A DNA stretch of 64,000 nucleotides from Aestuariivirga sp. (GTDB lineage Bacteria; Pseudomonadota; Alphaproteobacteria; Rhizobiales; Aestuariivirgaceae), in contig JAUXUN010000069.1 of NCBI GenBank assembly GCA_030680855.1, positions 1 through 64,000 of the forward strand, in the 5' to 3' direction. The translations under genes were made by a program, and so were the position numbers. Numbering within the stretch: position 1 is the stretch's first letter; each line of letters starts with the position of its first letter. Below are positions 28,642 to 43,125 of this stretch, one piece after another. The notes below the pieces were generated by a model. The model searched no databases. It saw only the letters and a program-made list of their open reading frames with translations, and was not told the origin of the DNA.

Positions 28642-28703
28642 TCTTCTATGACAGCTTTGCGACTTCCTGCAATTCCTGACCAGCCTAGGCGCAATTTGAC
28701 CAC

Positions 28704-28749
28704 TTGACAACATAAAATTGCTGTGCTTGCATCAATATCTATTTTATGT
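28704..28749 (+). promoter_or_regulatory. candidate promoter and DeoR operator of the BMC operon
   Basis: TTGACA at 28704-28709 is a good -35, with a weak -10 TTGCAT at 28727-28732 (17-base spacing). ACATAAAAT (28710-28718) and ATTTTATGT (28741-28749) are perfect inverted copies with 22 bases between. The arms overlap or flank the promoter, fitting repression. GAAGGAG at 28766-28772 is the ribosome site of the first gene. Confidence 0.55.
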
Positions 28750-28779
28750 CGGTCATTAAATGCCCGAAGGAGCCCAAAA

Positions 28780-30060
28780 ATGTTTGATTACGGCCATTTC
28801 CGGTTTGAGTCCAAGCAGGCGCTCTTTGACAAGGCCATCACCTTTTGGAACCCGGACAAGACCAAGTTCTGGCAAAAAGCGGGCATTGATCTGGTCATCG
28901 ACCGGCGCGAGGGCTACTGCCTCCATGACATGAGCGGGCGCCGGCTCATTGACCTGCATCTCAATGGCGGCACCTATAATCTGGGCCACCGCCATCCGGA
29001 ACTCGTTGAAACCCTGAAAGGCGCCCTGGACTATTTCGACATTGGCAACCACTGGTTCCCTTCCGTGGCGCGCGCCGCCCTGGCGGAGTCGCTGATCAAG
29101 GTTTCGCCGGGAATGAAATATGCGGTGTTTGCACCCGGAGGGGCCGAGGCCGTGGACATCGCCATCAAGAGTGCGCGTTATGCAACGAAGCGGCGCAAGA
29201 TCGTTTCCATCATCAAGGGCTATCACGGCCATTCGGGCCTTTCCGTTGCCACGGGCGATGACCGTTTCACCAAGATCTTTCTCAGCGACCAGCCGGAAAC
29301 CTTCATCCAGGTTCCTTTCAACGACATTGCCGCCATGGAAACAGCGCTCAAGGGCAATGATTGCGCGGCGCTGATCATGGAAACCATACCGGCCACCTAT
29401 GGCTTCCCGATACCGAAAGACGGCTATCTCAATGCCTGCAAGGCGCTGTGCGAAAAATACGGGGCCATGTATATCGCCGACGAAGTGCAAACCGGCCTGA
29501 TGCGCACGGGCGCCATGTGGGGTTGGCAGGCCTATGGAGTCCAGCCCGATATCATGGTGACCGCCAAGGGGCTGTCAGGCGGGCTCTATCCGATCAGCGC
29601 CTGCCTGGTGAACGAGAAAACCGGCGAATGGCTGAATGAGGATGGGGCCGCCCATATCAGCACCTCGGGCGGCGCCGAGCTCGGCTGCATCGTGGGCCAC
29701 AAGGTCATCGAAATGCTGCTGCGGAAAGAAACCATCGCCAATGTCGATATGGTCACAGAGTTTTTCCGCGAGGGCATGAAAGAGATGATGGAGCGCCACG
29801 GTGACATCTTCACCGGTGTGCGCCAGAAAGGCGTGATCCTCGGCCTTGAATTCAATCATCCGGAAGGCGCCGTGTCGGTTTCCCGGGCCCTTTATGAACA
29901 TGGCGTGTGGGCGATTTTTTCCTCCCTCGACAAGCGTGTGCTGCAATGGAAGCCCGGCGTTCTGCTGACTGCCAGACTGTGTCAGGAAATTCTTGACCGG
30001 TTCGATGCGGCCATGCCGCGGGCGCGCGAATTGCTGCGCAGTGCAGACAAAGTGAATTGA
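28780..30060 (+). CDS. class III PLP aminotransferase-family enzyme, probable amino-alcohol-phosphate phospho-lyase of a BMC
   Basis: 426 aa. Fold-type I class III enzyme: LHLNGGTYNLGHRHPELVET at the substrate end, APGGAEAVDIAIKSARYATK, Asp234 in YIADEVQTGLMRTG (pyridine nitrogen) and the Schiff-base Lys263 in VTAKGLSGGLYPISA. It is the first gene of the shell operon, and the operon also encodes an APH-fold kinase. This pair matches the known chemistry of class III enzymes that eliminate phosphate and ammonia from phosphorylated amino-alcohols to give an aldehyde. A true transaminase is the alternative. RMM-type BMC loci carry the same gene pair. Start ATG 28780 with a strong ribosome site. 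Confidence 0.85.
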   Translation: MFDYGHFRFESKQALFDKAITFWNPDKTKFWQKAGIDLVIDRREGYCLHDMSGRRLIDLHLNGGTYNLGHRHPELVETLKGALDYFDIGNHWFPSVARAALAESLIKVSPGMKYAVFAPGGAEAVDIAIKSARYATKRRKIVSIIKGYHGHSGLSVATGDDRFTKIFLSDQPETFIQVPFNDIAAMETALKGNDCAALIMETIPATYGFPIPKDGYLNACKALCEKYGAMYIADEVQTGLMRTGAMWGWQAYGVQPDIMVTAKGLSGGLYPISACLVNEKTGEWLNEDGAAHISTSGGAELGCIVGHKVIEMLLRKETIANVDMVTEFFREGMKEMMERHGDIFTGVRQKGVILGLEFNHPEGAVSVSRALYEHGVWAIFSSLDKRVLQWKPGVLLTARLCQEILDRFDAAMPRARELLRSADKVN

Positions 30061-30070
30061 GGAGCCTGAC

Positions 30071-31582
30071 ATGAGTGAAGCTCTGTTGAAAGTGCCAGAT
30101 GCCGCCCTTGAACAGGCCCGGATGATGCTCGACCGCGCCCGCTGGGGCGCCACAAGATTTCAAAAACTTGACAGCGCCACAACCCAGCGCATTGTGAATG
30201 CGGTGGCCGCGGCCGCGCATGGCAAGGCGCAGCATTATGCCGAATGGGCAGTGCGCGAAACCGGAATGGGGGTAGTGGCGCACAAGCGGATGAAGAATGA
30301 GGCCTGTTCGAAGGGACTTGCCGAAACCTATTCCGGTGAAAATTTTGTCTCGCCGCGCATTGACGAGGCCAAAAAGATTGTCGAACTGCCACGCCCGGCG
30401 GGCGTGATCTTCGCGCTCATCCCCGTCACCAACCCGGTGGCCACGGTTTATTTCAAAACACTTCTCGCGCTGATGACGCGGAATGCCATCATCCTGAGCC
30501 CCCATCCGGGAGCCAAAGCATGTTGCGCGGATGCCGCTCGCATGCTGGCGGATGCGGCGAAAGCCGCGGGGGCGCCCGACGGCGTCATTCAGGTGCTTGA
30601 AGAACCCAACATTCCGCTCATCGAAAAACTGATCGCCGACGAACGCATTGATTTGATTGTCGCCACCGGCGGGCCATCGGTGGTGAAGGCGGCCTATCGT
30701 TCAGGAAATCCTGCTTATGGCGTAGGCCCCGGCAATGCCCCTGTGCTGGTTGACGACACTGCAGACATAAAGCTCGCGGCCAAACGGATTGTCACATCCA
30801 AGGCCTTTGACAATTCCATCCTCTGCACCAACGAATCGGCGGCACTGGCCTTTACAAGCATTGCGGAATCCCTCCTTGCCGCGATGAAAGCGGAAGGAGC
30901 GCACATTTGCACGGCCGAAGAAACACAGAAACTGAGGCAACTGCTGTTCACCGAAAACGGCTTCAACGTGGGCATGATCGGCAGGGATGGCAGTGTCATC
31001 GCCAAGGAAGCGGGCTTCGCGGCCCCCGATGCAAGAATTCTGGTGACACCGGTAGATCTCGTGCAGCCAGAAGAAAAACTGGTGCGGGAAAAGCTCTGCC
31101 CGGTTCTGGCCTTTGCGCGGGTCAGCAATATTGACCAAGCCATCTCGGCAGCACGCTCGATGATGCGCAATTCGGGGGCCGGCCATTCCGCCGCAATCCA
31201 TTCCAGGAACGAGACAAATATCATGGCATTCGCGGCCGCCCTGCCCGCCCTTCGCATGGCGGTCAATGCCGGCTGCTCGCTTGGCGCTTCCGGCTATGAA
31301 ACCAATCTCGGCCCCTCCATGACCATTGGCACGGGCTTTGCCGGCGGCTCGTCGCTCAGTGAAAACCTCACACCACAGCATCTGATGCAGTATTCGCGCA
31401 TTGCCTATAACAAGGATGCCAGCGAGACTTTCGGGCGCTTCGCCGGGCTTGATCCCCTGAACCTGCCAAAGGCCGCAAGACCCGCAGCTTCGCTTGTCGT
31501 CAGCAATCCGGAAACTGACGAGCTGCGCCGCGAGCTTCGCAAAATCATTCTCGAGGAGCTGAACGCAGTTCTCGCGGCTTAA
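30071..31582 (+). CDS. CoA-acylating aldehyde dehydrogenase of a microcompartment
   Basis: 503 aa, EutE/PduP/SauS-like. Turns an aldehyde into acyl-CoA with NAD. Conserved stretches PAGVIFALIPVTNPVATVYF, ALMTRNAIILSPHPGAKACC, VATGGPSVVKAAYRSGNPAYG and the catalytic Cys252 in AFDNSILCTNESAALAF. The last 22 residues (from about 481, NPETDELRRELRKIILEELN and on) form an amphipathic helix after a Pro/Ala linker, typical of an encapsulation peptide, so the enzyme is probably a lumen enzyme. Gap to the upstream gene is 10 bases. Confidence 0.92.
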   Translation: MSEALLKVPDAALEQARMMLDRARWGATRFQKLDSATTQRIVNAVAAAAHGKAQHYAEWAVRETGMGVVAHKRMKNEACSKGLAETYSGENFVSPRIDEAKKIVELPRPAGVIFALIPVTNPVATVYFKTLLALMTRNAIILSPHPGAKACCADAARMLADAAKAAGAPDGVIQVLEEPNIPLIEKLIADERIDLIVATGGPSVVKAAYRSGNPAYGVGPGNAPVLVDDTADIKLAAKRIVTSKAFDNSILCTNESAALAFTSIAESLLAAMKAEGAHICTAEETQKLRQLLFTENGFNVGMIGRDGSVIAKEAGFAAPDARILVTPVDLVQPEEKLVREKLCPVLAFARVSNIDQAISAARSMMRNSGAGHSAAIHSRNETNIMAFAAALPALRMAVNAGCSLGASGYETNLGPSMTIGTGFAGGSSLSENLTPQHLMQYSRIAYNKDASETFGRFAGLDPLNLPKAARPAASLVVSNPETDELRRELRKIILEELNAVLAA

Positions 31583-31585
31583 ACC

Positions 31586-32185
31586 ATGGCAACACTCCGC
31601 TCATTCATTTTCCTCGACCAGCTGCAGCCGCAGACCATGTGTTATCTCGGCTCATGGATCAAAGGTTCGCTTCCCCGCCGCAATATGGCGGCGCAGATTA
31701 TCGAAGTGGCCCCGGGGCTTGATATCGAAGCCTTGACCGACATTGCCCTGAAAGAGGCCGATGTGCAGGGTGGCATTCTGGTGGTGGAACGACAATTCGG
31801 CTATCTCGAAATCCATTCCCGCGACATCGCGGCGGTGAAGGCCTCGGCCGAAGCGGTGCTTGCAGCATTGGGCAAGAATTCTTCCGATGCCATGCCGCCC
31901 AGAATACTTGCTTCAAAAATAATCACAAGGATCGACCCCAATCACGCTTTTCTGATCAACCGCAACAAGGGGGGCTCGATGATCCTGGCCGGCGAAACGC
32001 TGTTCGTCCTGGAGACGGAGCCTGCGGCCTACGCGATACTTGCGTCGAACGCGGCGGAGAAGGCAGCCAATATCAAGATTGTCGACTATCGCATGATTGG
32101 TGCCACGGGCAGGCTTTATCTCTCGGGCACAGAATCAGAAGTGAAAGCTGCAGCCAGCGCAGCGGAACAGGCCCTGGAATTATGA
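31586..32185 (+). CDS. tandem-BMC shell protein (BMC-T), copy 1
   Basis: 199 aa with two BMC-like halves, expected to form pseudohexameric trimers in the shell. First half has AAQIIEVAPGLDIEALTDIA and GGILVVERQFGYLEIHS; second half has NRNKGGSMILAGETLFVLET, then ASNAAEKAANIKIVDYRMIG and GRLYLSGTE. It is clearly homologous to the copy at 33147 (same LQPQ, IIEVAPGL, VERQFG and EIH blocks). ATG lies three bases after the aldehyde dehydrogenase stop; the end overlaps the next gene (ATGA). Confidence 0.9.
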   Translation: MATLRSFIFLDQLQPQTMCYLGSWIKGSLPRRNMAAQIIEVAPGLDIEALTDIALKEADVQGGILVVERQFGYLEIHSRDIAAVKASAEAVLAALGKNSSDAMPPRILASKIITRIDPNHAFLINRNKGGSMILAGETLFVLETEPAAYAILASNAAEKAANIKIVDYRMIGATGRLYLSGTESEVKAAASAAEQALEL

Positions 32186-32562
32186 AACCTGAAACGTCAC
32201 AGGAACTGCGTGGCCTGGTGCGGGAAGTGCTCAAGGAAGCCATGGCCAACCGTGCGCCGCCAAAACAGGGCGTCGAAACCATCCGCATTGGCAGCGATGC
32301 GGATCTGCAGGCTTTTGTGAGCCGCCTTTGCAGTCCCGGAATTATTGAATCCGTTCGCGCCGGGAAACTGGGATTCACGCTGGGGCAAACTGCATCTGCT
32401 CCAACGAGCCCGGGTGACATTCTGGAAGGTGTCATCTCAGAACAGAAAATTTCCGCCCTGGCGACAAAAGGCAACCTCATCCTGGGGCCCACCGCCGTGC
32501 TCACGCCGCTGGCGCGCGACAGGGCCCGCAAACTTGGTCTGAAAATTGAAAGGAGACGCTGA
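32182..32562 (+). CDS. small BMC-locus protein with helical N-terminus
   Basis: 126 aa, not assigned to a named family. Residues 1-22 (PETSQELRGLVREVLKEAMA) form an amphipathic helix of the encapsulation-peptide kind, followed by a linker. The C-terminal 40 residues read GVISEQKISALATKGNLILG, then PTAVLTPLARDRARKLGL, a short motif that I associate with several BMC-locus proteins. No signal peptide or catalytic motif. Stop codon overlaps the BMC-P start (TGATG). A cargo adaptor, shell-anchoring or assembly role is plausible but unproven. Confidence 0.75.
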   Translation: MKPETSQELRGLVREVLKEAMANRAPPKQGVETIRIGSDADLQAFVSRLCSPGIIESVRAGKLGFTLGQTASAPTSPGDILEGVISEQKISALATKGNLILGPTAVLTPLARDRARKLGLKIERRR

Positions 32563-32819
32563 TGCTCAAGGCAACGGTCACGGGCCGCATCTGGTCCACA
32601 AAGAAACTTGGCGAGGTTCCAACCGGATCCATTCTCGAGGTCCAGGTTGAGGACTCGTCAACAAGGCTCCTCGCCTTCGACCCGCTGGGATGCGGTGACG
32701 GCGAAAAAGTCATCGTGGCGACGGGCTCCGTCGCCGCCGCATGGTTTCCGGGCAAGGCACCACCCATCGATGCCCTGATTATCGGCTCCATCGATGAGTC
32801 CTCGGAAAAGAAGAAGTAA
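32562..32819 (+). CDS. BMC-P pentameric vertex protein (EutN/CcmL family)
   Basis: 85 aa. Starts [16 protein letters not shown], the standard EutN/CcmL opening, with [20 protein letters not shown] and [10 protein letters not shown] at the end. Members form pentamers that close the vertices of the icosahedral shell. The operon has a single pentamer gene. The Lys-rich tail (SSEKKK) is longer than in many homologues. Confidence 0.94.
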
Positions 32820-32847
32820 CGAAACACGTAAACCACAGGAGAAGAAC

Positions 32848-33132
32848 ATGTCGAGCAATGCAATTGGAATGGTTGAGACCAAAGGCTATGTTGCCGCCCT
32901 TGCCGCGGCTGATGCCATGGTGAAGGCCGCAAACGTCACGATCATCGGCCGCGAGGAAGTGGGCGATGGCCTGGTTGCCGTCATCATCAACGGCGATGTT
33001 GGCGCGGTGAAGGCCGCCACCGAGGCAGGCGCTGAAGTTGCCGGCCAGGTCGGCACGCTGGTTTCAGTTCATGTGATTCCGCGTCCGCATGCGGATGTGT
33101 CGAAGCATTTCACCTCAGGCACGGCGAAATAA
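32848..33132 (+). CDS. BMC-H hexameric shell protein
   Basis: 94 aa single BMC domain: [20 protein letters not shown], then [31 protein letters not shown] and [13 protein letters not shown]-like end (here [18 protein letters not shown]). These hexamers tile the facets of the shell; the pore loop lies in the EEVGDG region. It is the only BMC-H gene seen in the window. ATG 32848 has AGGAG seven bases upstream. Confidence 0.96.
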
Positions 33133-33146
33133 GGAAGGCCTGAAAC

Positions 33147-33800
33147 GTGATTCCTGATCGCAAGCCCGCCACGGGCGACTTGCGGGTCTTTCTCACGCTT
33201 GAAAGCCTGCAGCCGCAGTTTGCCGCCTATCTGGGCACGCCCACGCGGGCCCGCGGCTATCCGCCCTATGCGGGCCAGCATGCGCTTATCATCGAGGTCG
33301 CCCCCGGCCTGATGATCGAGCGGGTGATTGATCTGGCGCTCAAGGCTGATCCCGATCTGGAGCCGGGCATCCTGTTCGTGGAGCGGCAGTTCGGCATTCT
33401 GGAAATCCACGGCAGCGACAAGGAGAAGCTGCTGCTGGCGGGCAATACGATGCTGAAGGGCCTCGGCCTCAATGCGGGTGAACAGCTAAAGCCCAAGATC
33501 CTGTACACGGATATCATCGAGGATGTGGCAGACCAGCACGCCGTCATCATCAACCGCAACCGGCAAGCATCCATGATCCTGCCCGGGGAAACCCTGCTGA
33601 TCTGTGAAATGGTCCCGGCGCTTTACGCCGCCATTGCGGCAAATGAGGCAGAAAAGGCGGCGCCGGGGTTAACGCTTGTGGACGTGCAGATGATTGGGGC
33701 GGCCGGGCGCCTCTACATGTCTGGCACCACTGAAAATGTGCAGCGGGGGCTTGCGCGGATTGAACAGGTTCTGGCATCAATCGAAGGGCGCGACGGCTAG
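33147..33800 (+). CDS. tandem-BMC shell protein (BMC-T), copy 2
   Basis: 217 aa with GTG start, preceded by AAGGAAGG. Two BMC-like halves: LIIEVAPGLMIERVIDLALK with GILFVERQFGILEIHG, then NRNRQASMILPGETLLICEM, ANEAEKAAPGLTLVDVQMIG and GRLYMSGTTE. A paralogue of the 31586 gene, including the LQPQ motif near the N-terminus. A pair of different BMC-T proteins with one BMC-H and one BMC-P is the shell set known for RMM-type compartments. Confidence 0.9.
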   Translation: MIPDRKPATGDLRVFLTLESLQPQFAAYLGTPTRARGYPPYAGQHALIIEVAPGLMIERVIDLALKADPDLEPGILFVERQFGILEIHGSDKEKLLLAGNTMLKGLGLNAGEQLKPKILYTDIIEDVADQHAVIINRNRQASMILPGETLLICEMVPALYAAIAANEAEKAAPGLTLVDVQMIGAAGRLYMSGTTENVQRGLARIEQVLASIEGRDG

Positions 33801-33812
33801 GGAATTTCTGAC

Positions 33813-34823
33813 GTGACGGACTTCGATCGTTTGCCCCATGAAGAGCAATTGAAAGCCTTGCTGGAGCTGGCGCGGGCCGCGACACATAACTATGCACTGC
33901 CGGATCATCTGGCCGTCGAGATGATCAATCTTTCGGAGAATGCGACCTACAAGGTTGAAGCGCCAAATGGCCAACGCTGGGCCTTGCGTGTGCACCGCGA
34001 TGGCTATCACTCAAAAGCCGCCATCGCATCCGAGCTTTCATGGCTCATGGATCTGCGCAATACAAAAATTGTCGTAACTCCGCGCCCGGTGAAAGGGCGT
34101 GACGGCGAACTCATTCAACTGGTTTCCCACCCCGCGATGCAGCGGCCACGCCACGTGGTTCTGTCCGACTGGGAGACGGGCGCGGAACCCGGTATTGGCG
34201 AGGACCTGTCAAAGCCCTTCGAGGTGCTTGGCGAGGTCACGGCCCGCATGCATCTGCATGCACGGCAATGGAAACGCCCGGCATGGTTTCAACGGCATGC
34301 CTGGGATTTTGAAACGAGCCTTGGCGAGGATAGGCCCCATTGGGGACGCTGGCGTGACGGCATGGGTGTTGATGCGGCAAAAGCAAAACTCTTTGGCCGC
34401 ACGGTCGGTCTTATCGGCAAGCGCCTGAAGGCCTATGGGCAAGATAACGAACGTTTCGGCCTCATCCATTGCGACCTGCGATTGGCCAATCTCCTGATTG
34501 ACGATGGCCAGGTCAAAGTCATCGACTTCGATGACTGCGGCTTTGGCTGGTACATGTATGACTCGGCGACTCCGGTTTCATTCTACGAGCATGAGCCGCA
34601 GGTGCCGGGCCTGATCGAGTCCTGGAAGACTGGGTACGCCCGCGTGATTGATCTTCCCAAGGCCGATGAAAACGAAATCCCAACTTTTGTCATGCTGCGC
34701 CGGCTCTTGCTGGTGGCGTGGATCGGATCGCATTCCGAAACCGATCTCGCAAAGTCCATGGGCCTTCCCTATACGGAGGGAACGATGGGGCTGTGCGAGG
34801 CCTATCTGAGCAAATTCGGTTAG
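33813..34823 (+). CDS. APH-fold kinase, probable amino-alcohol kinase
   Basis: 336 aa, GTG start. Aminoglycoside phosphotransferase/choline kinase fold: ATP-side region ENATYKVEAPNGQRWALRVH, catalytic loop GLIHCDLRLANLLIDDG (Asp221, Asn226) and KVIDFDDCGFGWYMYD (metal Asp239). Found in RMM-type BMC loci beside the class III PLP enzyme. I infer that it phosphorylates an amino-alcohol such as 1-amino-2-propanol or ethanolamine so that the PLP enzyme can release the aldehyde. Antibiotic resistance is unlikely in this context. Its TAG overlaps the convergent dehydrogenase stop by three bases. Confidence 0.85.
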   Translation: MTDFDRLPHEEQLKALLELARAATHNYALPDHLAVEMINLSENATYKVEAPNGQRWALRVHRDGYHSKAAIASELSWLMDLRNTKIVVTPRPVKGRDGELIQLVSHPAMQRPRHVVLSDWETGAEPGIGEDLSKPFEVLGEVTARMHLHARQWKRPAWFQRHAWDFETSLGEDRPHWGRWRDGMGVDAAKAKLFGRTVGLIGKRLKAYGQDNERFGLIHCDLRLANLLIDDGQVKVIDFDDCGFGWYMYDSATPVSFYEHEPQVPGLIESWKTGYARVIDLPKADENEIPTFVMLRRLLLVAWIGSHSETDLAKSMGLPYTEGTMGLCEAYLSKFG

Positions 34824-35590
34824 GCCTGGGCCAGGGCGTCCAGGCTTTCCGGCAGGATCTGCCCGCCATCGACGATGATGGTCTGCCCTGTGACATAGGC
34901 CGCTTCCTTCGAAGCAAAATAGAGTGCGGCGTGGCCGATGTCATCGACATGGCCCAGGCGTTTCAAGGGCACGGAGGCGGCCATGGATTTCTGGTATTCC
35001 TCGCCCATGCCGGCCAGGCCCTCGGTAACAATGTTTCCGGGCATCACGGCATTCACGGTGATCGCGTATTTCGCCAGTTCGATGCAGGCAGTGCGCATGA
35101 AACCGAGCTGGCCGGCCTTGGAGGCGCCGTAATGGGTCCAGCCGGGAAAGCCAGTCACGGGACCGGTGATCGACGAGGTAATCACGACCCGCCCCTGATC
35201 AGATTTCTTGAGATAGGGAATGGCTGCCTTGACCGAATGGAAGGTGCCTTTGAGATTGGTGTCGATCACTTCATCCCATTGTTCCGATGTCATGTCCTCC
35301 AGCCGCGCGGGCGGGAAAATTCCGGCATTGGCGCAGAGCACATCTATCCCGCCATTTTTCGCGGCAATGGTTTTAAGCGCCGCCTCGATGCCGGGAAGCG
35401 AGGTCACATCGCCGCTCACGCCAAAGGCCCCGTGGCCAATTTCGGCGGCACAGGCATCAGCATCCTTCAGGTTGCGGGCAAGAATGGCGACCTTTGCGCC
35501 GGCCCCGGCAAAGACGCGGGCAATGCCCTTGCCGATGCCCTTGGAGCCCCCGGTCACCACCACGGAGCGGCCTTTGAGTGATGCGGACAT
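34820..35590 (-). CDS. SDR dehydrogenase, candidate amino-alcohol dehydrogenase
   Basis: 256 aa classical short-chain dehydrogenase. Cofactor motif VTGGSKGIG (residues 12-20), NAG at 88-90, catalytic Ser139/140, Tyr154 and Lys158 in YGASK, C-terminal VTGQTIIVDGGQILPES. It resembles the SDRs associated with RMM-type loci that oxidise 1-amino-2-propanol, but many SDRs look alike, so the substrate is inferred from context. Last gene of the minus-strand operon, tail-to-tail with the kinase gene. Confidence 0.8.
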   Translation of the reverse strand: MSASLKGRSVVVTGGSKGIGKGIARVFAGAGAKVAILARNLKDADACAAEIGHGAFGVSGDVTSLPGIEAALKTIAAKNGGIDVLCANAGIFPPARLEDMTSEQWDEVIDTNLKGTFHSVKAAIPYLKKSDQGRVVITSSITGPVTGFPGWTHYGASKAGQLGFMRTACIELAKYAITVNAVMPGNIVTEGLAGMGEEYQKSMAASVPLKRLGHVDDIGHAALYFASKEAAYVTGQTIIVDGGQILPESLDALAQA

Positions 35591-35606
35591 AATTTATTCT
35601 CCCTGG

Positions 35607-36419
35607 TTATTCAGTAGCGGACTGGCGGGCCCGGCGCATGGCGAGGATGAGACCGTAACTGCCGATCAGCAGGAACGCGGCGCCAATGGTGGAAACTGTA
35701 CCAAGCACCGGAACGCCGGGCGTATAGCCGGCAATCATCTTGGCGTAGAGGTATTCCGGCAACGTGGTGTCCGCGCCAGTGGTATAGAGCGACAGCGGGA
35801 AATTTCCCCACGAGAGAAGGAAGGCGAACAGCGCGCCTGAAAATATTCCCGGAAACAGCACCGGCAATGTCACTTCGCGGAACACCTGCCAGCGCGTCGC
35901 GCCGAGATCGAAGGCTGCTTCTTCCAGCGCGGGATCGAAGGAATAGACCTGAATGGAAATTACCAGCGTGCAGACCGGTATGATCCAGACCAGGTGAGCA
36001 AACACCGCAGTCTGCCACGACATGGTGAATCCGAGCGCGTTGAACCACAGCAGCAGCGCAAGGCCAAGCACCGTTTGCGGGAAGAAGATAGGGAGCAGCA
36101 CGATTTTCTGATAGATCGAGCGGCCCTTCCACTCATAGCGCGCGAAGGCAAGAGCCCCGAACAGCGCAATCACGACTGCGACCGCCGTGACGCAAAGCGC
36201 GATGACGAGGGACGTCTTGAAAAGCTGGTGGACTTCCAGCGAGGCGAATGTCTTTTGCCACCAGTCGAAGCCCCATTTGGTGACAGGGAAAATGAAATAG
36301 CGGCTGGAGGTGCTGGAGGCGAGCAGCAGGCTGACCGCCGGCAAATACATGAAGACAATGACCGCGCCGGTCCAGGACCAGATGAAGGCGCGGCGCATGC
36401 GATCGGCGGACCCGTTCAT
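35607..36419 (-). CDS. ABC importer permease, PotC type
   Basis: 270 aa, six transmembrane segments, with the BPD permease EAA loop EEAAFDLGATRWQVFREVTL. Second permease of a spermidine/putrescine-type importer. I chose ATG 36419 over GTG 36425: AGGAGG lies five bases before the ATG and directly abuts the GTG. The stop of the other permease gene (36422) lies next to it, so the two are translated as a pair. 16 bases separate it from the SDR gene downstream. Confidence 0.9.
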   Translation of the reverse strand: MNGSADRMRRAFIWSWTGAVIVFMYLPAVSLLLASSTSSRYFIFPVTKWGFDWWQKTFASLEVHQLFKTSLVIALCVTAVAVVIALFGALAFARYEWKGRSIYQKIVLLPIFFPQTVLGLALLLWFNALGFTMSWQTAVFAHLVWIIPVCTLVISIQVYSFDPALEEAAFDLGATRWQVFREVTLPVLFPGIFSGALFAFLLSWGNFPLSLYTTGADTTLPEYLYAKMIAGYTPGVPVLGTVSTIGAAFLLIGSYGLILAMRRARQSATE

Positions 36420-36421
36420 GC

Positions 36422-37288
36422 TCACCTCCTGCCCACGATCGTATCGAGATCGAAGCGCCGAAGCACCAATAGAACTAGCGTGCCCACCACCAGCATCAGC
36501 AGCACGGAAACGGCGGCGCCCAGTGGCCAGTTCTGCGCATAGGTAAAGGCGATTTCGATGTCATGGGTTATCGGGATGACGCGCTGGCCACCCAGGACCT
36601 TGGCCTCGGCGAGCGCCCCGACGGCGAGCACGAAAGTCAGAAGAAAGCCAATCACCACGCCCGGCATGGAAAGCGGCAGGTCAACTTCCTTGAACACCTG
36701 CCAGCGCGAAGCGCCGAGGTCGAAAGCCGCATCGCGCGTCTGCTGCGGCACCATGGAAACGCCGAGCGTCATCGGAAACAGCATGAACGGCAGATATACA
36801 TAGACCATGCCCAACAGCGTCAGCCCGGTTGTAAAGACAATGCTTTCCAGCTCGAAGCCGAACAGGGATTTCAGGCTGCCCAGCAGCACTCCGTTCTTGA
36901 TGAAAAACAGGATCCAGCCATAGATCCGGACATTCTCCGACACGAACAGCGGCAAGGCGAACAGCAGTGTGATCAATGTCGCCCATCTGCCGAAGACACG
37001 GGTCAGACCGAAGGCAACCGGATAGCAAACAATGGCGAGGATCACGACAGTCGCGACAGCCAGCCCGAGCGACCACAGAAACGAAATATAGATCGAGGAT
37101 TGAAAGATTTCGACGTAATTGCCGAGGCTCCACTTCTGCCACAGACTGAAGGTCCGGGCCGGAACGAAGCTGTAGGCGATGACCGCCAGCAATGGCGCCG
37201 CGAACCCGCCCAGCAAGAACAGCATGATGGGGACCGCGAGGCGCGGGCCGGGACCGAATGTCTTGAACAACCTGTTCATCGCCGCCAT
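36422..37288 (-). CDS. ABC importer permease, PotB type
   Basis: About 288 aa from ATG 37288, six membrane segments (first: LAVPIMLFLLGGFAAPLLAV), EAA loop DAAFDLGASRWQVFKEVDLP. First permease of the polyamine-type system; note that it keeps GVSMVPQQTRDAAFDLGA as in PotB. ATG 37279 is an alternative start. Together with the ATPase, the second permease and the binding protein this is a full type I importer. Confidence 0.9.
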   Translation of the reverse strand: MAAMNRLFKTFGPGPRLAVPIMLFLLGGFAAPLLAVIAYSFVPARTFSLWQKWSLGNYVEIFQSSIYISFLWSLGLAVATVVILAIVCYPVAFGLTRVFGRWATLITLLFALPLFVSENVRIYGWILFFIKNGVLLGSLKSLFGFELESIVFTTGLTLLGMVYVYLPFMLFPMTLGVSMVPQQTRDAAFDLGASRWQVFKEVDLPLSMPGVVIGFLLTFVLAVGALAEAKVLGGQRVIPITHDIEIAFTYAQNWPLGAAVSVLLMLVVGTLVLLVLRRFDLDTIVGRR

Positions 37289-37292
37289 CCGT

Positions 37293-38357
37293 TCAGTCGG
37301 TAACCAGGATGCTGCCCTCAGCATCCCAGCCTATCAGCACTTTGTCGTCCCGGTGGCCCCCGAAGGCCTGCTGGCGCAATTTCTCGACGATGAAGACGTG
37401 ATCGCCGACCCGCACCTGGTACTGGACGCGGGAACCGAGGACATATTCGTTGTAGAGGCGGCCTTCGAGACAGTTGTCCGTTTCGCCGGGACTGCCGACA
37501 AAACGCAAGGATTCCGGGCGCACCACCAGATAGCCGGCGGTGAATCCGGCAGGCACGGGAAGGCACTTTAGATTGGTAGCGAATTCCGCGGCGCGCAAGC
37601 TCGCGGCGCCGATTGCCGTGACGGCAATGACATTGACGTCGCCAATGAATTCGGAGACGAACTTGGTTTGCGGGGCAGAATAGATTTCCTGGGGCGACCC
37701 GACCTGGACCAGTTTGCCCGCGCGCATGACGCCGATGCGGTCACTCATCACCATAGCCTCCTCCAGGCTGTGGGTGATGTAGATGAAGGTTTTGCCGGTT
37801 TCGCGGTGGATGTCCTTAAGTTCCTTTTCCAATGTCTTGCGGAGCTTGTAGTCGATGGCCGACAGCGGCTCATCGAAGAAAAGAATATCGGGTTCATAGG
37901 CAAGGGCGCGGGCGAGCGCCACGCGCTGCCGCTCGCCGCCGGAACATTTGGTGACGTTCTTGCTGTAGTAGGTTTCCGGCAGGCGCAGCTGCAACATGAG
38001 TTCCAGCGCGCGGGCCTTCCTGACCGCCGGATCGACGCCCTTCATCTTGAGGGAGAACTCAATATTCTGACCCACCGAGCGATGCGGAAACAAGGCCAGC
38101 GATTGGAATACCATGCAGGTCGGCCGTTTGTTGGCCGGCAAGTCGTTTATGCGCTGGCCCCGCAGAAGGATATCGCCGCTGCTGGCGAATTCCATGCCCG
38201 TCAGCATGCGCAGGAGCGTGGTCTTGCCGCTGCCGGAGGGACCGACAATGGTGAAGAACTCGCCCTCCTCAAAATCGAGATCAATGTCGTTCACGGCAGT
38301 AAAATTGCCGAAGACCTTAGTGAGATTGCGCAGCTGCAATATTGGAGTGCCGGCCAT
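37293..38357 (-). CDS. ABC importer ATP-binding protein, PotA type
   Basis: 354 aa. Walker A GPSGSGKTTLLRML, Q-loop VFQSLALFPH, signature KCSGGERQRVALARAL (Cys-Ser in place of Leu-Ser), Walker B ILFFDEPLSAID, H-loop THS. A C-terminal TOBE-like region (residues 240-354) is typical of PotA/MalK ATPases. Start ATG 38357 has GAGG just upstream. Energises import for the adjacent permeases. Confidence 0.93.
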   Translation of the reverse strand: MAGTPILQLRNLTKVFGNFTAVNDIDLDFEEGEFFTIVGPSGSGKTTLLRMLTGMEFASSGDILLRGQRINDLPANKRPTCMVFQSLALFPHRSVGQNIEFSLKMKGVDPAVRKARALELMLQLRLPETYYSKNVTKCSGGERQRVALARALAYEPDILFFDEPLSAIDYKLRKTLEKELKDIHRETGKTFIYITHSLEEAMVMSDRIGVMRAGKLVQVGSPQEIYSAPQTKFVSEFIGDVNVIAVTAIGAASLRAAEFATNLKCLPVPAGFTAGYLVVRPESLRFVGSPGETDNCLEGRLYNEYVLGSRVQYQVRVGDHVFIVEKLRQQAFGGHRDDKVLIGWDAEGSILVTD

Positions 38358-38400
38358 GGACCTCGAATTCCGGAAAATGAATGTTGCCAAAATGTTGCGA

Positions 38401-38429
38401 ACCGCCCAGCGGGAATGCCGCCGGGCGGT
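38401..38429 (-). promoter_or_regulatory. strong RNA hairpin between binding-protein and ATPase genes
   Basis: On the minus strand ACCGCCCGGCGG, loop CATTC, CCGCTGGGCGGT: a 12-bp stem with one G-U pair. It follows the binding-protein stop by 24 bases and lacks a long T-run. Such hairpins often stabilise the 5' message, giving more binding protein than membrane parts. Confidence 0.6.
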
Positions 38430-38453
38430 CCGTTGATCAGCCCGTCATGCCCA

Positions 38454-39620
38454 TCAGCCGCCGGATGTTTCGCGCTTGGCGGCGGTCATGATGTCGAGCA
38501 GCTTATCATAGTCCGGCACGATGTCATATTCGGCCGAGCGCGCCATCTCCTCCTCCAGGCTGTCCCACTGGATGATGTCCAATTCTTCCTTGTTGAAGAG
38601 CTTGAAACAGTCAGCGTTGCCCATCTGGGTAACCGGGTTGAAGGTGCCTTCGGCAAAGGCAACGGTGTGCGACATTTCCGGAGACTGGACATATTCGAGG
38701 AAGTTCTCGGCATGGGTCGAGAGATCGGGGTTGTTGACCACCGAGGTGATCTCGATCCAGGAGATGCCGCCCTTGCCGCCCTCCATGGGGCCGCGCAGCG
38801 GCGTAATGGCCCTGATGTTGAGGTTGCCGTCGGCGCGCGCCGGCGAGCAGGAGTAAGTTCCGCCGGTGAGGTAGAAGTCGATCTCGCCGGACACCAGTGC
38901 CTGGTTCATGGTGGCCAGATCGCCGACCATCCTGGCACCCTTGAACACGCGCTTGGCGGCATCGGTGTATTTCGCCACGTCCTCTTCCGTGTGCTCACGG
39001 AAGGGGTCGAAGCCCGCGATGCAGCAGAGATCGAAGACGTTCCAATCATCGGAATTCTGCACGCCGTATTTCTTGTCGTTGGCCGCGTCGTTCCACAGGT
39101 CCCAGCCCTGGTCCTCGGCGGTGGCGCGGCTTATCTTGTCGGTGTTGACCACGAAGCTGTAAGGCCCAAAGCGCTGGGCCATTCCGAGGAGGTTGGCGCC
39201 TGCGTCATCCATGGCCCATTTGTAAGGAGCGTTGAAGGCTGGCATCATTTTGCCGAAATAGGGCTCGAAGCGGGCCCTGTCGATCGGCTTGATCAGATTC
39301 TCCGGGTACATGATCTTGCGGGCCCAGGGATTGTTGACGTTGATCAGGTCCCAAATATTGGTTTCGCCAGCGCGGAGCCGGTTGATCATGGTGGGGTCAT
39401 TGGTGAGGGACTCAGCTTTCACCGTGGCCCCGGTGGACGAGCGGAACGGATCGAGCACCTGGGCCGAGTTGTAGCCTTCCCAGCACAGGATGTTGAGCTC
39501 CTTGTCGCGTGCCGCGGAAGCCACGCCTGGAACCAGGGCCCCTCCTCCGGCAAAGGCGGCGGCCCAAAGGGCCGATTGCTGCATGAAATTGCGGCGTGAA
39601 ACCTTACTGCAATTCGCCAT
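38454..39620 (-). CDS. ABC importer substrate-binding protein, polyamine (PotD/PotF) type, Tat signal
   Basis: 388 aa. SRRNFMQQSALWAAAFAGGG is a Tat-like signal (twin Arg then a hydrophobic stretch ending VASA), so the periplasmic protein is probably exported folded. Mature part follows the PotD pattern: LNILCWEGYNSAQVLDPF, YSFVVNTDKIS, and a type II binding-protein hinge. Acidic and aromatic residues suggest a cationic ligand, but ligand identity is not visible. AGGGAGAG precedes ATG 39620. Confidence 0.88.
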   Translation of the reverse strand: MANCSKVSRRNFMQQSALWAAAFAGGGALVPGVASAARDKELNILCWEGYNSAQVLDPFRSSTGATVKAESLTNDPTMINRLRAGETNIWDLINVNNPWARKIMYPENLIKPIDRARFEPYFGKMMPAFNAPYKWAMDDAGANLLGMAQRFGPYSFVVNTDKISRATAEDQGWDLWNDAANDKKYGVQNSDDWNVFDLCCIAGFDPFREHTEEDVAKYTDAAKRVFKGARMVGDLATMNQALVSGEIDFYLTGGTYSCSPARADGNLNIRAITPLRGPMEGGKGGISWIEITSVVNNPDLSTHAENFLEYVQSPEMSHTVAFAEGTFNPVTQMGNADCFKLFNKEELDIIQWDSLEEEMARSAEYDIVPDYDKLLDIMTAAKRETSGG

Positions 39621-39727
39621 TTTTCTCTCCCTGTTTTTTCGGTTTTGCCTTGGTCACTTAGTCATAATCCGTCGGAAATTGTGCACAAATTTTTCCTGTG
39701 AGTAAATAGCCAATCGCAGCATTGCTG

Positions 39728-40423
39728 CTACTCCAGCCGCATCATGGCTTTGAGTTCCTGGCTCGACAGAACGTGGCAATATATCATGTTGATTATTTCC
39801 AGTTCTTTGTGGTGCAATTCGTCTGATCCCGCAGCACAGCAGTCCTCCAACACCACCACATTGTAGCTTTCGTCGGCCAGGCTGCGCACGGTCGAAGACA
39901 CACACTGGTCGGTGAAAATTCCAGCACAAATCACGTTCCTGATGCCCAGGTTGTGCAGGATCAGCCTAAGATTTGTGCCGGTGAGGGCGGAATCCGTCGT
40001 CTTGGTGACGACTATTTCGTCACCGGCAGGCGCCAATTCAGCCACCAATTGCGAGGGATTTTGGTCCTTCGGGAGCAGCAGATTGTTCCAGCCCGGCATT
40101 TTCTGGGAAAGCGAGCGTTCGCGGCCATCTAGCGTGTGGGTTGCAATGCGGGCGAAGAGGCATTCTATGCCTTTGGCGCGGCAGAGGTTCAGCAGCTCCG
40201 CCGTGCGGGGAATGACCTGTTTGCGCATGCGTTCGTGAAACGGTGTCCAGGCATCAAAGCGGGCCTGCTCGGCTTTTGAAAGCCTGGCGCGGTCGGGCCG
40301 CTCGAGATAGGTGTTCTGGATGTCGATGACGAGAAGGGCTGTCTCCCTGGCGGGCAGGTCAAGATCGTCAGGTTCGGGGGCACCTTCATAGTAGATCGAA
40401 CGGAAGCTGGTTTTCCACGACAT
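39728..40423 (-). CDS. cysteine hydrolase, isochorismatase-like fold
   Basis: 231 aa. Catalytic triad of the family: Asp34 in LLVIDIQNTYL, Lys141 in EIVVTKTTDSALTGTNL, Cys174 in CAGIFTDQCVSSTVRSL. Members hydrolyse amides such as nicotinamide, N-carbamoylsarcosine, ureidoacrylate or biuret. Its place between the dehydratase small subunit (9 bases away) and the importer suggests that it trims an amide, perhaps an N-carbamoyl or N-acyl group, from the imported compound. This is inference; the substrate is not readable from the sequence. Confidence 0.85.
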   Translation of the reverse strand: MSWKTSFRSIYYEGAPEPDDLDLPARETALLVIDIQNTYLERPDRARLSKAEQARFDAWTPFHERMRKQVIPRTAELLNLCRAKGIECLFARIATHTLDGRERSLSQKMPGWNNLLLPKDQNPSQLVAELAPAGDEIVVTKTTDSALTGTNLRLILHNLGIRNVICAGIFTDQCVSSTVRSLADESYNVVVLEDCCAAGSDELHHKELEIINMIYCHVLSSQELKAMMRLE

Positions 40424-40432
40424 GAGGTCTTC

Positions 40433-40858
40433 CTAAAAGCGGTAGGTGAAGAGGCCGCGGCGTTCGTAGATGGCGGCAGCTTCTTCAATGAATTCTGCCA
40501 TGAGTTCGGCCTTGTAGGTCTGGCGGAATGCTTTCGCGACATCCAGAAGCTGTTCCTTGGATTTGGCCCGGCCGGGGCGCAGCATCTCATAGGAACTCAT
40601 GATGAAATCCTGGGGAACGCCCACCAGTTCGGCGGCGCGTTCAAAATTAAGGGCCAGGGTCGGACGCCCGGCGGCGCGGGAAATCTCGGCCTGGTCGGCC
40701 AGCGCCTGCGGCGTGATGCGCAGATCCTCCATGGTCACCCCGCCCGCCACGACAGCGTCCAAGGTTATGTCATCGAGGGACCTTCCGCGTTGCCCTCGAA
40801 TTTTATCGCTTCGGGTTTCGGCCAGGGGATAGTCGGCGATGGTAAGTTTTGCGGTCAT
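40433..40858 (-). CDS. diol/glycerol dehydratase small subunit (PduE/DhaE-like)
   Basis: 141 aa. The small-subunit pattern is present: ADYPLAETRSDKI, RSLDDITLDAVVAGGVTMED, LRITPQALADQAEISRAAGR, LALNFERAAEL, and the C-terminal EEAAAIYERRGLFTYRF. Forms a heteromer with the fused large/medium subunit and binds adenosylcobalamin. No obvious encapsulation helix at the N-terminus. Its ATG overlaps the stop of the dehydratase large gene (ATGA). Confidence 0.93.
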   Translation of the reverse strand: MTAKLTIADYPLAETRSDKIRGQRGRSLDDITLDAVVAGGVTMEDLRITPQALADQAEISRAAGRPTLALNFERAAELVGVPQDFIMSSYEMLRPGRAKSKEQLLDVAKAFRQTYKAELMAEFIEEAAAIYERRGLFTYRF

Positions 40859-43125
40859 GATTTTGCCCCGGTAAATTTCACTTCGATATCCTCGGGAGCC
40901 GCACCTTCGGCCGTCAATCCGGTTTCAATGGCGTAGATCAGGGCCACACGGGCATGGTAGCGCGAACCCATGGCTTCGCCGCGGGTCGGCACCACCACGG
41001 GTTCGGGCATTTCGCCCAGGGCATAGGCCGCCGCATTTGCTCCAAAGCCCTTATAGTGTTCGAGCTTGGTGATTGGCGCATTGGAAAAAAGTTCAAGGTT
41101 GTTATGGGGCAAGCGGTCACGGCTGTGAATGACGGCGGTTCCCTTGGCCTGGATGCCGATGCCAATGCCCGAACCGGACAGCGTCGCCGCCGAGATGCCG
41201 AGGAACGACGTATCGGCGGTGTGCCTGAAGCGCACGACGCGGGCCTTCAGGCCGCGCTTCTCAATCGCCTCGATCATGCCTTTGAGGACATCGGAGAGGC
41301 GATGCCCCGCCGTGGTCTGGAACAGGTTCAAGCCGAAGGCCGGGCTGATGCCGATTACCACTTCTTTTTTGTCGCTCCCCTGCCCAGCCGGGCCCTTGAC
41401 GCGGTACTGAATGCGTTTGGCCTCGTCCTTTTCATGCAGCGCTTCCTGGCGCAGCACTTCCTTCTGGTCCAGCACGTCGCGGATGGAATTGAGTTCAAGG
41501 CGGCGCTCTTCCGACACGCGGTAGCCGGTGCCGGGGCCGAGATAGGTATTGGGATCATTCACGGCGCTGACAACCTTGCCCTTGCGCACCATGGCCGAGG
41601 TTTGCAGATAATCGCCAGTAACACGGAGCTTAACGAGGTTCAGCAGGTTCTGCGCTTCTTCGGCAAAACCGCGCTTCACGAGCGCCTTGATCACCTCAAT
41701 CACGGTAATCTCGCGTTCCTTGATGGCTTCGCTGATCTTGGCCACGTCGCGCGGGGTATAGCTTCGGGTTTCATCGGAACCGGAGGCCACCACCACACTT
41801 TGCTTCATGTCAGCCGTGGGCTTGCTCAGGCCCAGTTCCTCAAACACGGCGGAAATGGCTTCAACGGCGCGGCTGCGCAAATCCAACGCGCGCTCCTCGG
41901 GCAGCGGCGTCAAACCGCCATCGGCCTCGAAGTCGCGCTGGAGCACAAGGAAATCTTCCATCTCCTCGCCATTGAGCAGGGACGGATTGAAGGAATTGTC
42001 ATAGGCGAGGATAGAGCCAAAACCGGAGCAGATGAGATCGGAACCGGAGATCAGGAAGGGCAGGATTTTTGCGCCGACGCGAATTTCTGATTCGGTTGAG
42101 CGCGCGTCATTGCCGGAGGCGCATTCCAGATCGAGCCAGACGGCCAGGAGATTTTCCGCCATCAGTTCACGGATGCCGCCGGGAATTGTGGCGGTCAACG
42201 GCGCGCCATCAATGCCGCCATTCTGCGTGCCTTGCGCGCCCATGCCCCGTTGCAGGCACAGGCAGCGGGCTTCGAGGTAAAGCAGCGACTTCGACTCATG
42301 GAAACCCATGAGCAATTCTGAACCGGCGCCCGAGGTGCAGCGCATCTTGATTCCGCGCGAGGCATAGCCCGCAGCGAGGAATGCTTTCGACCAGGGCGTA
42401 TCGTCGCCATCGATGAAGGTTTTTTCCGTGCCGTAAACTGACACGGTTTCGGCATAGGAGGTGAAACCCGCCATGCCGATGCGCAGTTCTTCAGCCTCTT
42501 CGCTGGAACATTGAAAGAGTGTGCCCCAACGGCCAACGGCACTGCCCACGGCGCAGGCCACCGCATTGGACCAGGCGTTGCGCGAGACGCGCATGGTGGT
42601 TTCGATTTCATCGAAGCCAAAGGCCACGGCGGTTGCAGCATCAGCAGCTAGCTGCAAGGGATCATCCTTGGCATTGGTCACATGGGCCTGGTTGCCGGGA
42701 GTCTTGCGGGCCCGCATCTTGGAATAGGCGAAAGCAATTTCCAGCGCATTGAGGCGGGAGACGACGTCAGCCAGTTTTGCCGGGGTCATGCCATGGGCCA
42801 GGCGCACCAGTTGCTCGCGCGGCACATTCATGTCGACCAGCATGCGCGCCACGTCGCCAGACTCCATCGCCATGGCCTCCGGAGCAATGGTGGGATCAAG
42901 GTGATGGCGGGCGATGAATTCATCGATCATGTCGAAGTCGTGGGCAAGCACGCCATCCATGCCGGCAATTTTGCCGGACTTTATGGAAACACCTGGCTTC
43001 GGATCGGCGGGGCTGGTGAAAGCCGAAAAGCCATGGGCCGCGTCTTCCGCCGCGAACTTGTCCAGCCGCAGGGGCCGCGCATCCCACTGCGCATAACGCC
43101 GCCACCGATTTGGAGTTTCTGTCAA
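40855..43125 (-). CDS. B12-dependent diol dehydratase, fused large and medium subunits (PduC-PduD like)
   Basis: 756 aa, TTG start. Residues 1-545 correspond to the large (alpha) subunit and about 575-750 to the medium (beta) subunit, which are separate proteins in Klebsiella. An ungapped comparison with K. oxytoca PduC from memory (offset +5) keeps the catalytic residues Gln146, His148, Glu175, Glu226, Gln301, Asp340 and Ser367. Two pocket residues differ: Ser301 is Asp306 (QNGGIDGAP) and Gln336 is Ala341 (ASGNDARS). These line the C3 side of the substrate, so the enzyme probably acts on something other than plain propanediol or glycerol. First gene of the minus-strand operon; no reactivase gene is nearby. 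Confidence 0.9.
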   Translation of the reverse strand: MTETPNRWRRYAQWDARPLRLDKFAAEDAAHGFSAFTSPADPKPGVSIKSGKIAGMDGVLAHDFDMIDEFIARHHLDPTIAPEAMAMESGDVARMLVDMNVPREQLVRLAHGMTPAKLADVVSRLNALEIAFAYSKMRARKTPGNQAHVTNAKDDPLQLAADAATAVAFGFDEIETTMRVSRNAWSNAVACAVGSAVGRWGTLFQCSSEEAEELRIGMAGFTSYAETVSVYGTEKTFIDGDDTPWSKAFLAAGYASRGIKMRCTSGAGSELLMGFHESKSLLYLEARCLCLQRGMGAQGTQNGGIDGAPLTATIPGGIRELMAENLLAVWLDLECASGNDARSTESEIRVGAKILPFLISGSDLICSGFGSILAYDNSFNPSLLNGEEMEDFLVLQRDFEADGGLTPLPEERALDLRSRAVEAISAVFEELGLSKPTADMKQSVVVASGSDETRSYTPRDVAKISEAIKEREITVIEVIKALVKRGFAEEAQNLLNLVKLRVTGDYLQTSAMVRKGKVVSAVNDPNTYLGPGTGYRVSEERRLELNSIRDVLDQKEVLRQEALHEKDEAKRIQYRVKGPAGQGSDKKEVVIGISPAFGLNLFQTTAGHRLSDVLKGMIEAIEKRGLKARVVRFRHTADTSFLGISAATLSGSGIGIGIQAKGTAVIHSRDRLPHNNLELFSNAPITKLEHYKGFGANAAAYALGEMPEPVVVPTRGEAMGSRYHARVALIYAIETGLTAEGAAPEDIEVKFTGAKS

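Follow-up and report, generated by a model that had tools for sequence, protein, structure and literature searches.

A variant RMM2-type microcompartment locus with a fused diol dehydratase in Aestuariivirga and other Alphaproteobacteria

The 64,000-nucleotide stretch of Aestuariivirga sp. analyzed here (assembly GCA_030680855.1, contig JAUXUN010000069.1, positions 1 to 64,000; hereafter, the window) carries a bacterial microcompartment (BMC) locus that is a real, conserved alphaproteobacterial variant of RMM2, a type of Rhodococcus and Mycobacterium microcompartment (RMM). A plus-strand shell operon and a minus-strand operon encoding a fused, adenosylcobalamin (AdoCbl)-dependent diol dehydratase meet tail to tail, with the frames of the kinase and of the short-chain dehydrogenase/reductase (SDR) sharing 4 bases (34820-34823; Table 1). 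On balance, we favor reading it as an RMM2-type amino-alcohol utilization locus in which the fused dehydratase probably forms an accessory branch of the same pathway. RMM2 is a known organelle type, the purpose of which is not settled; the new observations are a variant pocket of the dehydratase and the missing match to its reactivase. Gene content, family membership, co-occurrence, the variant pocket and the lack of a match to the reactivase family PF08841 were all read directly from sequences.

Gene content and relation to known microcompartments

Axen et al. (2014) separated RMM2 from RMM1 by the diol dehydratase genes, located on the opposite strand (PMC4207490). The window agrees with this description in its shell genes (BMC-H, BMC-P and double-type BMC-T), in encoding an aldehyde dehydrogenase (ALDH), a class III pyridoxal phosphate (PLP) enzyme, an aminoglycoside phosphotransferase (APH)-family kinase and an SDR, and in the orientation of its dehydratase genes, opposite to the RMM genes. 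The locus lacks the amino-acid permease and the GntR regulator, which were described for RMM1 as genes that RMM2 has in common with it, and contains an ABC importer and a DeoR regulator instead; we regard the two missing genes as ancillary and, for this reason, call the locus a variant of RMM2. In addition, the window encodes an isochorismatase-fold hydrolase, although RMM1 hydrolases were said to be absent from RMM2, and its PLP enzyme is of another subfamily than that of Rhodococcus.

RMM1 and RMM2 occupy BMC-T clades of their own (Sutter et al. 2021; PMC8217296), and a 2021 survey of the human microbiome listed RMM2 for the alphaproteobacterium Paracoccus yeei TT13 (PMC8156839). Thus, the combination of genes, which the initial annotation did not recognize as characterized for an alphaproteobacterium, corresponds to a known type. 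An amino-propanol (Aut) pathway was predicted for such clusters in 11 gut genomes of Actinobacteria, Firmicutes and Proteobacteria (PMC6620236). As far as we found in the literature on RMM2 and alphaproteobacterial RMM, the importer, the hydrolase and the pocket variant are undescribed, which does not prove their absence from print.

All genes named in the initial annotation are present in the order, strands and families it gave, at nearly the same coordinates, and the RMM-type shell operon, the B12 dehydratase and the complete PotABCD-like importer had been identified correctly. Its parts list omitted the 126-aa gene (32182-32562), and we add the divergent DeoR regulator. Most gene names are family assignments below curated cut-offs; scores above cut-off were obtained for the dehydratase large subunit (NF011979), the twin-arginine translocation (Tat) signal of the binding protein, and the SDR (models named FabG and SDR family oxidoreductase). 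BMC-T2 had no Pfam match and was recognized by the NCBIfam CcmP model and by its identity to Rhodococcus, and the PotD-like binding protein weakly matched the putrescine-binding 7xjm.

The RMM assignment of the shell proteins rests on identity to Rhodococcus jostii RHA1, which is among the organisms that gave RMM loci their name (PMC4207490). Plasmid pRHL2 of this strain was the closest of the five plasmid records with a BMC-T1 relative. Identity to the RHA1 RMM proteins is 48% for ALDH, 66-67% for BMC-T1, 31% for the 126-aa protein (against a hypothetical protein), 51% for BMC-P, 84% for BMC-H, 61% for BMC-T2 and 37% for the kinase, and the order ALDH, BMC-T, hypothetical protein, BMC-P, BMC-H, BMC-T is common to both. 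The window therefore resembles the RMM1/Aut loci of Rhodococcus and Mycobacterium, which serve 1-amino-2-propanol utilization, in its shell proteins (51-84% identical) and gene order, but differs in the dehydratase, for which no match (E 1e-5) was found in the 40.5-kb RHA1 stretch. That stretch is annotated with an isochorismatase-family gene and an ethanolamine permease near the shell genes, and it carries the block of BMC-T, hypothetical protein, BMC-P and BMC-H genes twice, with identical protein accessions (L171:20001-21597 and 23894-25490). In the shell operons of relatives, the 126-aa gene occupies the same place as in the window.

The 1,2-propanediol utilization (PDU) microcompartment likewise has an AdoCbl-dependent diol dehydratase near shell genes. 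The PDU dehydratase has encapsulation peptides, and the PDU shell set is different. Moreover, its subunits are unfused, its pocket is of the Ser/Gln type and the reactivase family is present (genome G028, see below), the window differing in each respect. We thus rejected an ordinary PDU locus, given the variant pocket, the fusion, the RMM relatives of the shell and the lack of a PF08841 match.

Table 1. Genes of the two operons and the adjoining regulator, in window coordinates
Gene product	Position	Strand	Basis
DeoR/GlpR-type regulator, divergent from shell operon	27862..28713	-	PF00455+PF08220
Class III PLP enzyme, proposed amino-alcohol-phosphate phospho-lyase or transaminase	28780..30060	+	PF00202
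CoA-acylating-type ALDH, C-terminal encapsulation-peptide-like helix	30071..31582	+	PF00171; AdhE/EutE-like models under cut-off
BMC-T1 shell protein, CcmP-like	31586..32185	+	PF00936, CcmP model
126-aa protein, N-terminal amphipathic helix	32182..32562	+	no Pfam/NCBIfam match
BMC-P vertex protein	32562..32819	+	PF03319
BMC-H hexamer	32851..33132	+	PF00936, 93.9 bits
BMC-T2 shell protein, CcmP-like	33147..33800	+	NCBIfam CcmP model, 186 bits (cut-off 340)
APH-family kinase, proposed amino-alcohol kinase	33813..34823	+	PF01636
SDR, proposed 1-amino-2-propanol-type dehydrogenase	34820..35590	-	top PDB match 6ci8, E 8.6e-89
ABC permease, PotC-like	35607..36425	-	PF00528; PotC model under cut-off
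ABC permease, PotB-like	36422..37324	-	PF00528; PotB model under cut-off
ABC ATPase, PotA-like	37293..38390	-	PF00005; PotA model under cut-off
Periplasmic binding protein, PotD-like, Tat-type signal	38454..39620	-	PF13416; TAT signal model over cut-off
Isochorismatase-fold cysteine hydrolase	39728..40423	-	PF00857; nearest biuret amidohydrolase and RutB models, under cut-off
Diol dehydratase small subunit	40433..40858	-	PF02287
Fused large+medium subunit, AdoCbl-dependent diol dehydratase	40855..43125	-	PF02286+PF02288, one 756-aa frame; NF011979 over cut-off

An SMP-30/gluconolactonase-like gene (43279-44169) is divergent from the dehydratase; homologues of it lie near the dehydratase in loci L093, L106 and L150 (50-54% identity) and near the PLP gene in L176 (44%). 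Riboswitches and other known RNAs gave 0 Rfam matches at gathering score in the window, and scans for promoters (3 versus 5.2) and terminators (16 versus 16.0) did no better there than on shuffled sequences. The genome itself contains three Cob_adeno_trans matches, one CobN/Mg-chelatase-family gene and methylmalonyl-CoA-mutase-family genes.

Modular composition of the locus in relatives

Our first sample consisted of 249 genomes from the order of the window, its own genome included. The dehydratase large-subunit family PF02286 was present in 19 of them (16 fused, 3 unfused) and BMC-T2, at an identity of at least 56%, in 16; seven further genomes with BMC-T2 matches of 36-41% were taken to carry other BMC types and were not counted. 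The fused dehydratase and the RMM-like shell coincide in 13 genomes spanning seven families (Fisher p 1.8e-16, uncorrected for relatedness; 2.3e-15 without the own genome). On these statistics, a chance neighborhood of the two operons was rejected, and the link between them asserted by the initial annotation is real. A close SDR (E <= 1e-75) is encoded in 39 genomes, including 15 of the 16 with the fused dehydratase; 12 of these 39 have both dehydratase and shell, 3 the dehydratase only, 2 the shell only and 22 neither (p 8e-6, again uncorrected). Among the 12 other double-positive genomes, dehydratase and shell lie on one contig within ~16 kb in 6; another five have contigs too short, or ending too close to the genes, to judge linkage. 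The dehydratase, importer, SDR, ALDH and shell genes share one strand in G013, G061, G006, G015, G126 and G092, not always together with the kinase and PLP genes.

From 183 relatives of the dehydratase in named assemblies, the best 80 were taken as a second sample, which partly overlaps the first. The shell was in view in 17 loci and was found elsewhere in 26 of the 61 other genomes (21/49 and 5/12), so that 43 of 78 dehydratase-bearing genomes have an RMM-like shell (L098 was left out of this count, and L163 shares its record set with L157). On a FastTree phylogeny of 78 labeled rows plus outgroup (L168 dropped), the shell label changes 13 times, 11 of the changes being forced by well-supported branches, as compared to 25.7 changes in shuffles. 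Thus, the shell is clustered on the tree but has been repeatedly gained or lost. The initial annotation had held that the link would be due to chance if the dehydratase operon occurred in many relatives devoid of BMC genes and never together with them; many such relatives do exist, yet co-occurrence is far above chance. Judging from gene content, shell and dehydratase are each optional. One contig inside the otherwise alphaproteobacterial dehydratase clade (L162) is titled Halieaceae, a gammaproteobacterium, reflecting either transfer or a mis-binned metagenome-assembled genome (MAG). No actinobacterial RMM2 dehydratase was among the plasmid matches listed.

The best solved relatives of the SDR are 6ci8, 3pk0, 6ci9 and 3rih (E about 1e-88), of which 6ci8 and 6ci9 represent the M. 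smegmatis RMM 1-amino-2-propanol dehydrogenase. A permease or ABC importer is found together with SDR, kinase and PLP genes in L177, L181 and L183, and the hydrolase in L177 and L183; the genomes of these three loci have no PF02286 or BMC-T2 match. The SDR, importer and cysteine hydrolase had been described as companions of the dehydratase, an assignment that we rejected because they are present with the kinase and PLP genes where neither the dehydratase nor an RMM-like shell was found; for the same reason, we assign them to an amino-alcohol core. Across the loci compared, this core appears as the widest unit, with the shell and the dehydratase as optional add-ons that tend to go together.

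The same modules recur in relatives, nearly all of them Alphaproteobacteria, where other families fill the same roles. A permease of the amino acid-polyamine-organocation (APC) type was found in 24 of the 123 scanned loci (40% identity limit), and in L091, L096, L101, L107, L115 and L120 it lies between the hydrolase and the SDR, the position of the ABC importer in the window. An AraC-type regulator is present in 38/123 loci, and a DeoR homologue adjoins the PLP gene in G013, G061 and G120. A class I glutamine-amidotransferase-like protein, found in 10/123 loci, occurs without a visible window-type hydrolase in L118, L124, L126 and L139 and with it in L068, L119, L136, L146 and L149; because five loci carry both, it is not simply a substitute for the hydrolase. 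Some shell-less relatives have an additional ALDH; it comes closest to models of betaine/aminobutyraldehyde dehydrogenases, but its scores are below the cut-offs and it therefore counts for little. On plasmids of Shinella (L172:8060-16069) and Agrobacterium (L173:8064-16072), a fused dehydratase, sugar-type ABC genes, SDR, kinase and PLP genes share one strand; the kinases and PLP enzymes, 74% and 80% identical, respectively, between the two plasmids, belong to other subfamilies than those of the window. The PLP subfamily of the shell-less Hyphomicrobium-type loci is 51% identical to the Rhodococcus RMM PLP enzyme and 58% to that of Shinella.

Two further loci differ in composition. In G104, a genome of the same genus as the window, PLP, APH and a shortened SDR match have the same arrangement (L176:13840-16669); neither BMC-T2 nor the dehydratase was matched in this genome, and the locus looks like a relic. 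In Roseovarius aestuarii (L138:1469-12687), genes for a branched-chain/urea-type importer, a glutamine-synthetase-like protein and an iron-containing alcohol dehydrogenase precede the dehydratase and have relatives in L122 and L133; an RMM-like BMC-T2 is encoded elsewhere in the genome.

Dehydratase pocket and reactivase

The catalytic segments of the dehydratase align without gaps with the solved fused glycerol dehydrase 9vi2. The catalytic and metal residues are kept as His148, Glu175, Glu226, Gln301, Asp340 and Ser367, the K. oxytoca residues being His143, Glu170, Glu221, Gln296, Asp335 and Ser362 (PMC7674605). Position 306, equivalent to Ser301 of K. oxytoca, is Asp in 95/95 readable rows of the fused family; Gln336 is replaced by Ala in 90 rows and by Thr, Cys or Ser in 5, and Thr337 by Arg in 92, Lys in 2 and Ala in 1, where rows are loci rather than genomes, some genomes appear twice via two collections, some rows are cut by contig ends and L150 was unreadable. 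The window has Asp306, Ala341 and Arg342, whereas the unfused dehydratases have Ser, Gln and Thr at these positions in 3/3 rows. Ser301 of the K. oxytoca enzyme forms a hydrogen bond with the 3-OH of glycerol, and combining S301A with Q336A opens the pocket for longer diols (PMC9850924, PMC7674605). From Asp at this position, we infer a substrate that may carry a positive charge at its third carbon.

Fusion of the large and medium subunits into one chain is shared with 9vi2 and with the enzymes of Mesorhizobium loti and Mycobacterium smegmatis, taken here from their naming in PMC7674605, and Mesorhizobium loci fall in the same dehydratase tree as the window. Unlike the window, 9vi2 keeps the Ser/Gln pocket. 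Searches with PF08841, which covers the reactivase large-subunit family only, yielded no match in the 16 fused-dehydratase genomes or the 3 shell-only genomes, and one match in G028, the single canonical-dehydratase genome searched. Together, the altered pocket and the lack of a recognizable reactivase suggest that the dehydratase works on a substrate not yet named. It is conceivable, although doubtful, that the fused dehydratases represent a new specificity class of amino-diol dehydratases operating without the usual reactivase, and that RMM2 loci encode amino-alcohol/amino-diol metabolosomes with radical B12 and kinase/phospho-lyase branches for the same nutrient.

Proposed pathway and alternative readings

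In the pathway that we propose, the polyamine-type ABC importer would take up a cationic amino alcohol or its amide, from which the cysteine hydrolase would release the amine. The SDR would interconvert amino ketone and amino alcohol, the APH kinase would phosphorylate the latter, and the class III PLP enzyme would eliminate phosphate and ammonia to yield an aldehyde, to be oxidized to acyl-CoA inside the shell by the ALDH with its encapsulation-peptide-like tail. The fused dehydratase would act on a related vicinal diol, probably one with an adjacent amine, and supply the resulting aldehyde to this ALDH or to a parallel one; 3-amino-1,2-propanediol is an example suggested by the chemistry. 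For the core, 1,3-diamino-2-propanol and hydroxyputrescine were considered as candidate substrates, and it is possible that two aldehyde routes lead into one ALDH. Every reaction and substrate, as well as which enzymes are encapsulated, we infer. The C-terminus of the ALDH and the N-terminus of the 126-aa protein form amphipathic helices (by eye and by hydrophobic moment), a weak indication of encapsulation peptides: other termini score too, the highest moment (0.66) being that of the dehydratase N-terminus, a segment that aligns with the body of 9vi2.

Several observations weigh against this reading. The operons are convergent and hence not one message. The dehydratase and the shell are on different long contigs in G228, the dehydratase occurs without an RMM-like shell in G004, G077 and G087, and the shell without the dehydratase in G157 (a fragment), G181 and G189. 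In the second sample, no RMM-like shell was found in 35 of the 78 genomes, including three doubtful cases (G255, with one match of E 5e-4; G261, with one match of 48%, the level of RMM BMC-T1; and G309, the L168 genome, with ALDH and PLP genes beside the dehydratase on the contig) and some incomplete MAGs, which the eight Mesorhizobium isolates searched are not. Nor have the dehydratase subunits gained terminal length in 34 shell-bearing compared to 23 shell-less loci (hand-picked lists, with some genomes twice and hits of <85% coverage dropped); this lack of a targeting tail argues, weakly, that the dehydratase lies outside the shell, and it may be cytosolic. Asp306 could instead form a salt bridge with the nearly as conserved Arg/Lys342, which is the obvious alternative to a charged substrate; a 12-row AlphaFold prediction for the dehydratase (mean predicted local distance difference test score 52.3) was too poor to judge this pairing and was set aside. 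As for the core, the SDR passes the FabG model as well, and kinases this similar (E <= 1e-50) are encoded in 65 of the 249 genomes, so that the kinase alone is unspecific and unfit for a co-occurrence test. The PLP enzyme shares only 25% identity with its Rhodococcus RMM counterpart, hence its placement in another subfamily, and the SDR and hydrolase have no match (E 1e-5) in the RHA1 stretch.

The opposite strand of the dehydratase, its lack of an added targeting tail, the shell-less genomes of the second sample and the dehydratase-less shells of G181 and G189 would also fit a dehydratase that has nothing to do with the shell and neighbors an RMM1-like amino-alcohol operon as a separate enzyme. 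Axen et al. likewise preferred an RMM2 shell that makes no use of the dehydratase (PMC4207490). We nevertheless consider this quite unlikely, given the shell in 13 of 16 fused-dehydratase genomes and the distribution among SDR-bearing genomes, the one-strand runs from dehydratase to shell in six genomes, and the same company of SDR, kinase and PLP genes on the shell-less plasmid stretches. A bifunctional organelle, in which 1,2-propanediol via the dehydratase and 1-amino-2-propanol via the kinase and phospho-lyase would supply one ALDH, appears rather improbable. Propanal would be the product of both routes, and the methylmalonyl-CoA-mutase-family genes of the own genome are in favor of this reading. 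This alternative was named by Axen et al. (PMC4207490), and P. yeei TT13 grows on propylene glycol (PMC8156839); however, no pdu operon was reported for TT13, in which breakdown was inferred to lead to pyruvate (PMC5773746), a methyl group should be poorly accommodated where Asp replaces the side-chain-pocket Ser, and nothing places the dehydratase within the shell. Compatible with any of these readings is a tentative proposal that the PLP enzyme is a transaminase rather than a phospho-lyase, the core proceeding via lactaldehyde or another aldehyde with the kinase acting later. Putrescine and acetylornithine aminotransferases are its closest matches among both models (below their cut-offs) and solved structures, and a transaminase has been proposed (PMC6620236), whereas the adjacent Shinella kinase and PLP genes, although of other subfamilies, each match a portion of PRK06148, a model of a kinase-PLP fusion (under cut-off), which suggests consecutive steps.

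RMM2 has been listed since 2014 among organelles of unclear purpose, with its dehydratase judged to be probably unused. The association across 249 genomes, together with the variant pocket, provides this dehydratase with a role that can be tested and with a few candidate substrates, and a diol dehydratase without a recognizable reactivase would be of interest to enzyme engineers. Moreover, the relatives with or without the shell and the dehydratase make it possible to ask what the shell is for, the enzymes being much alike on both sides.

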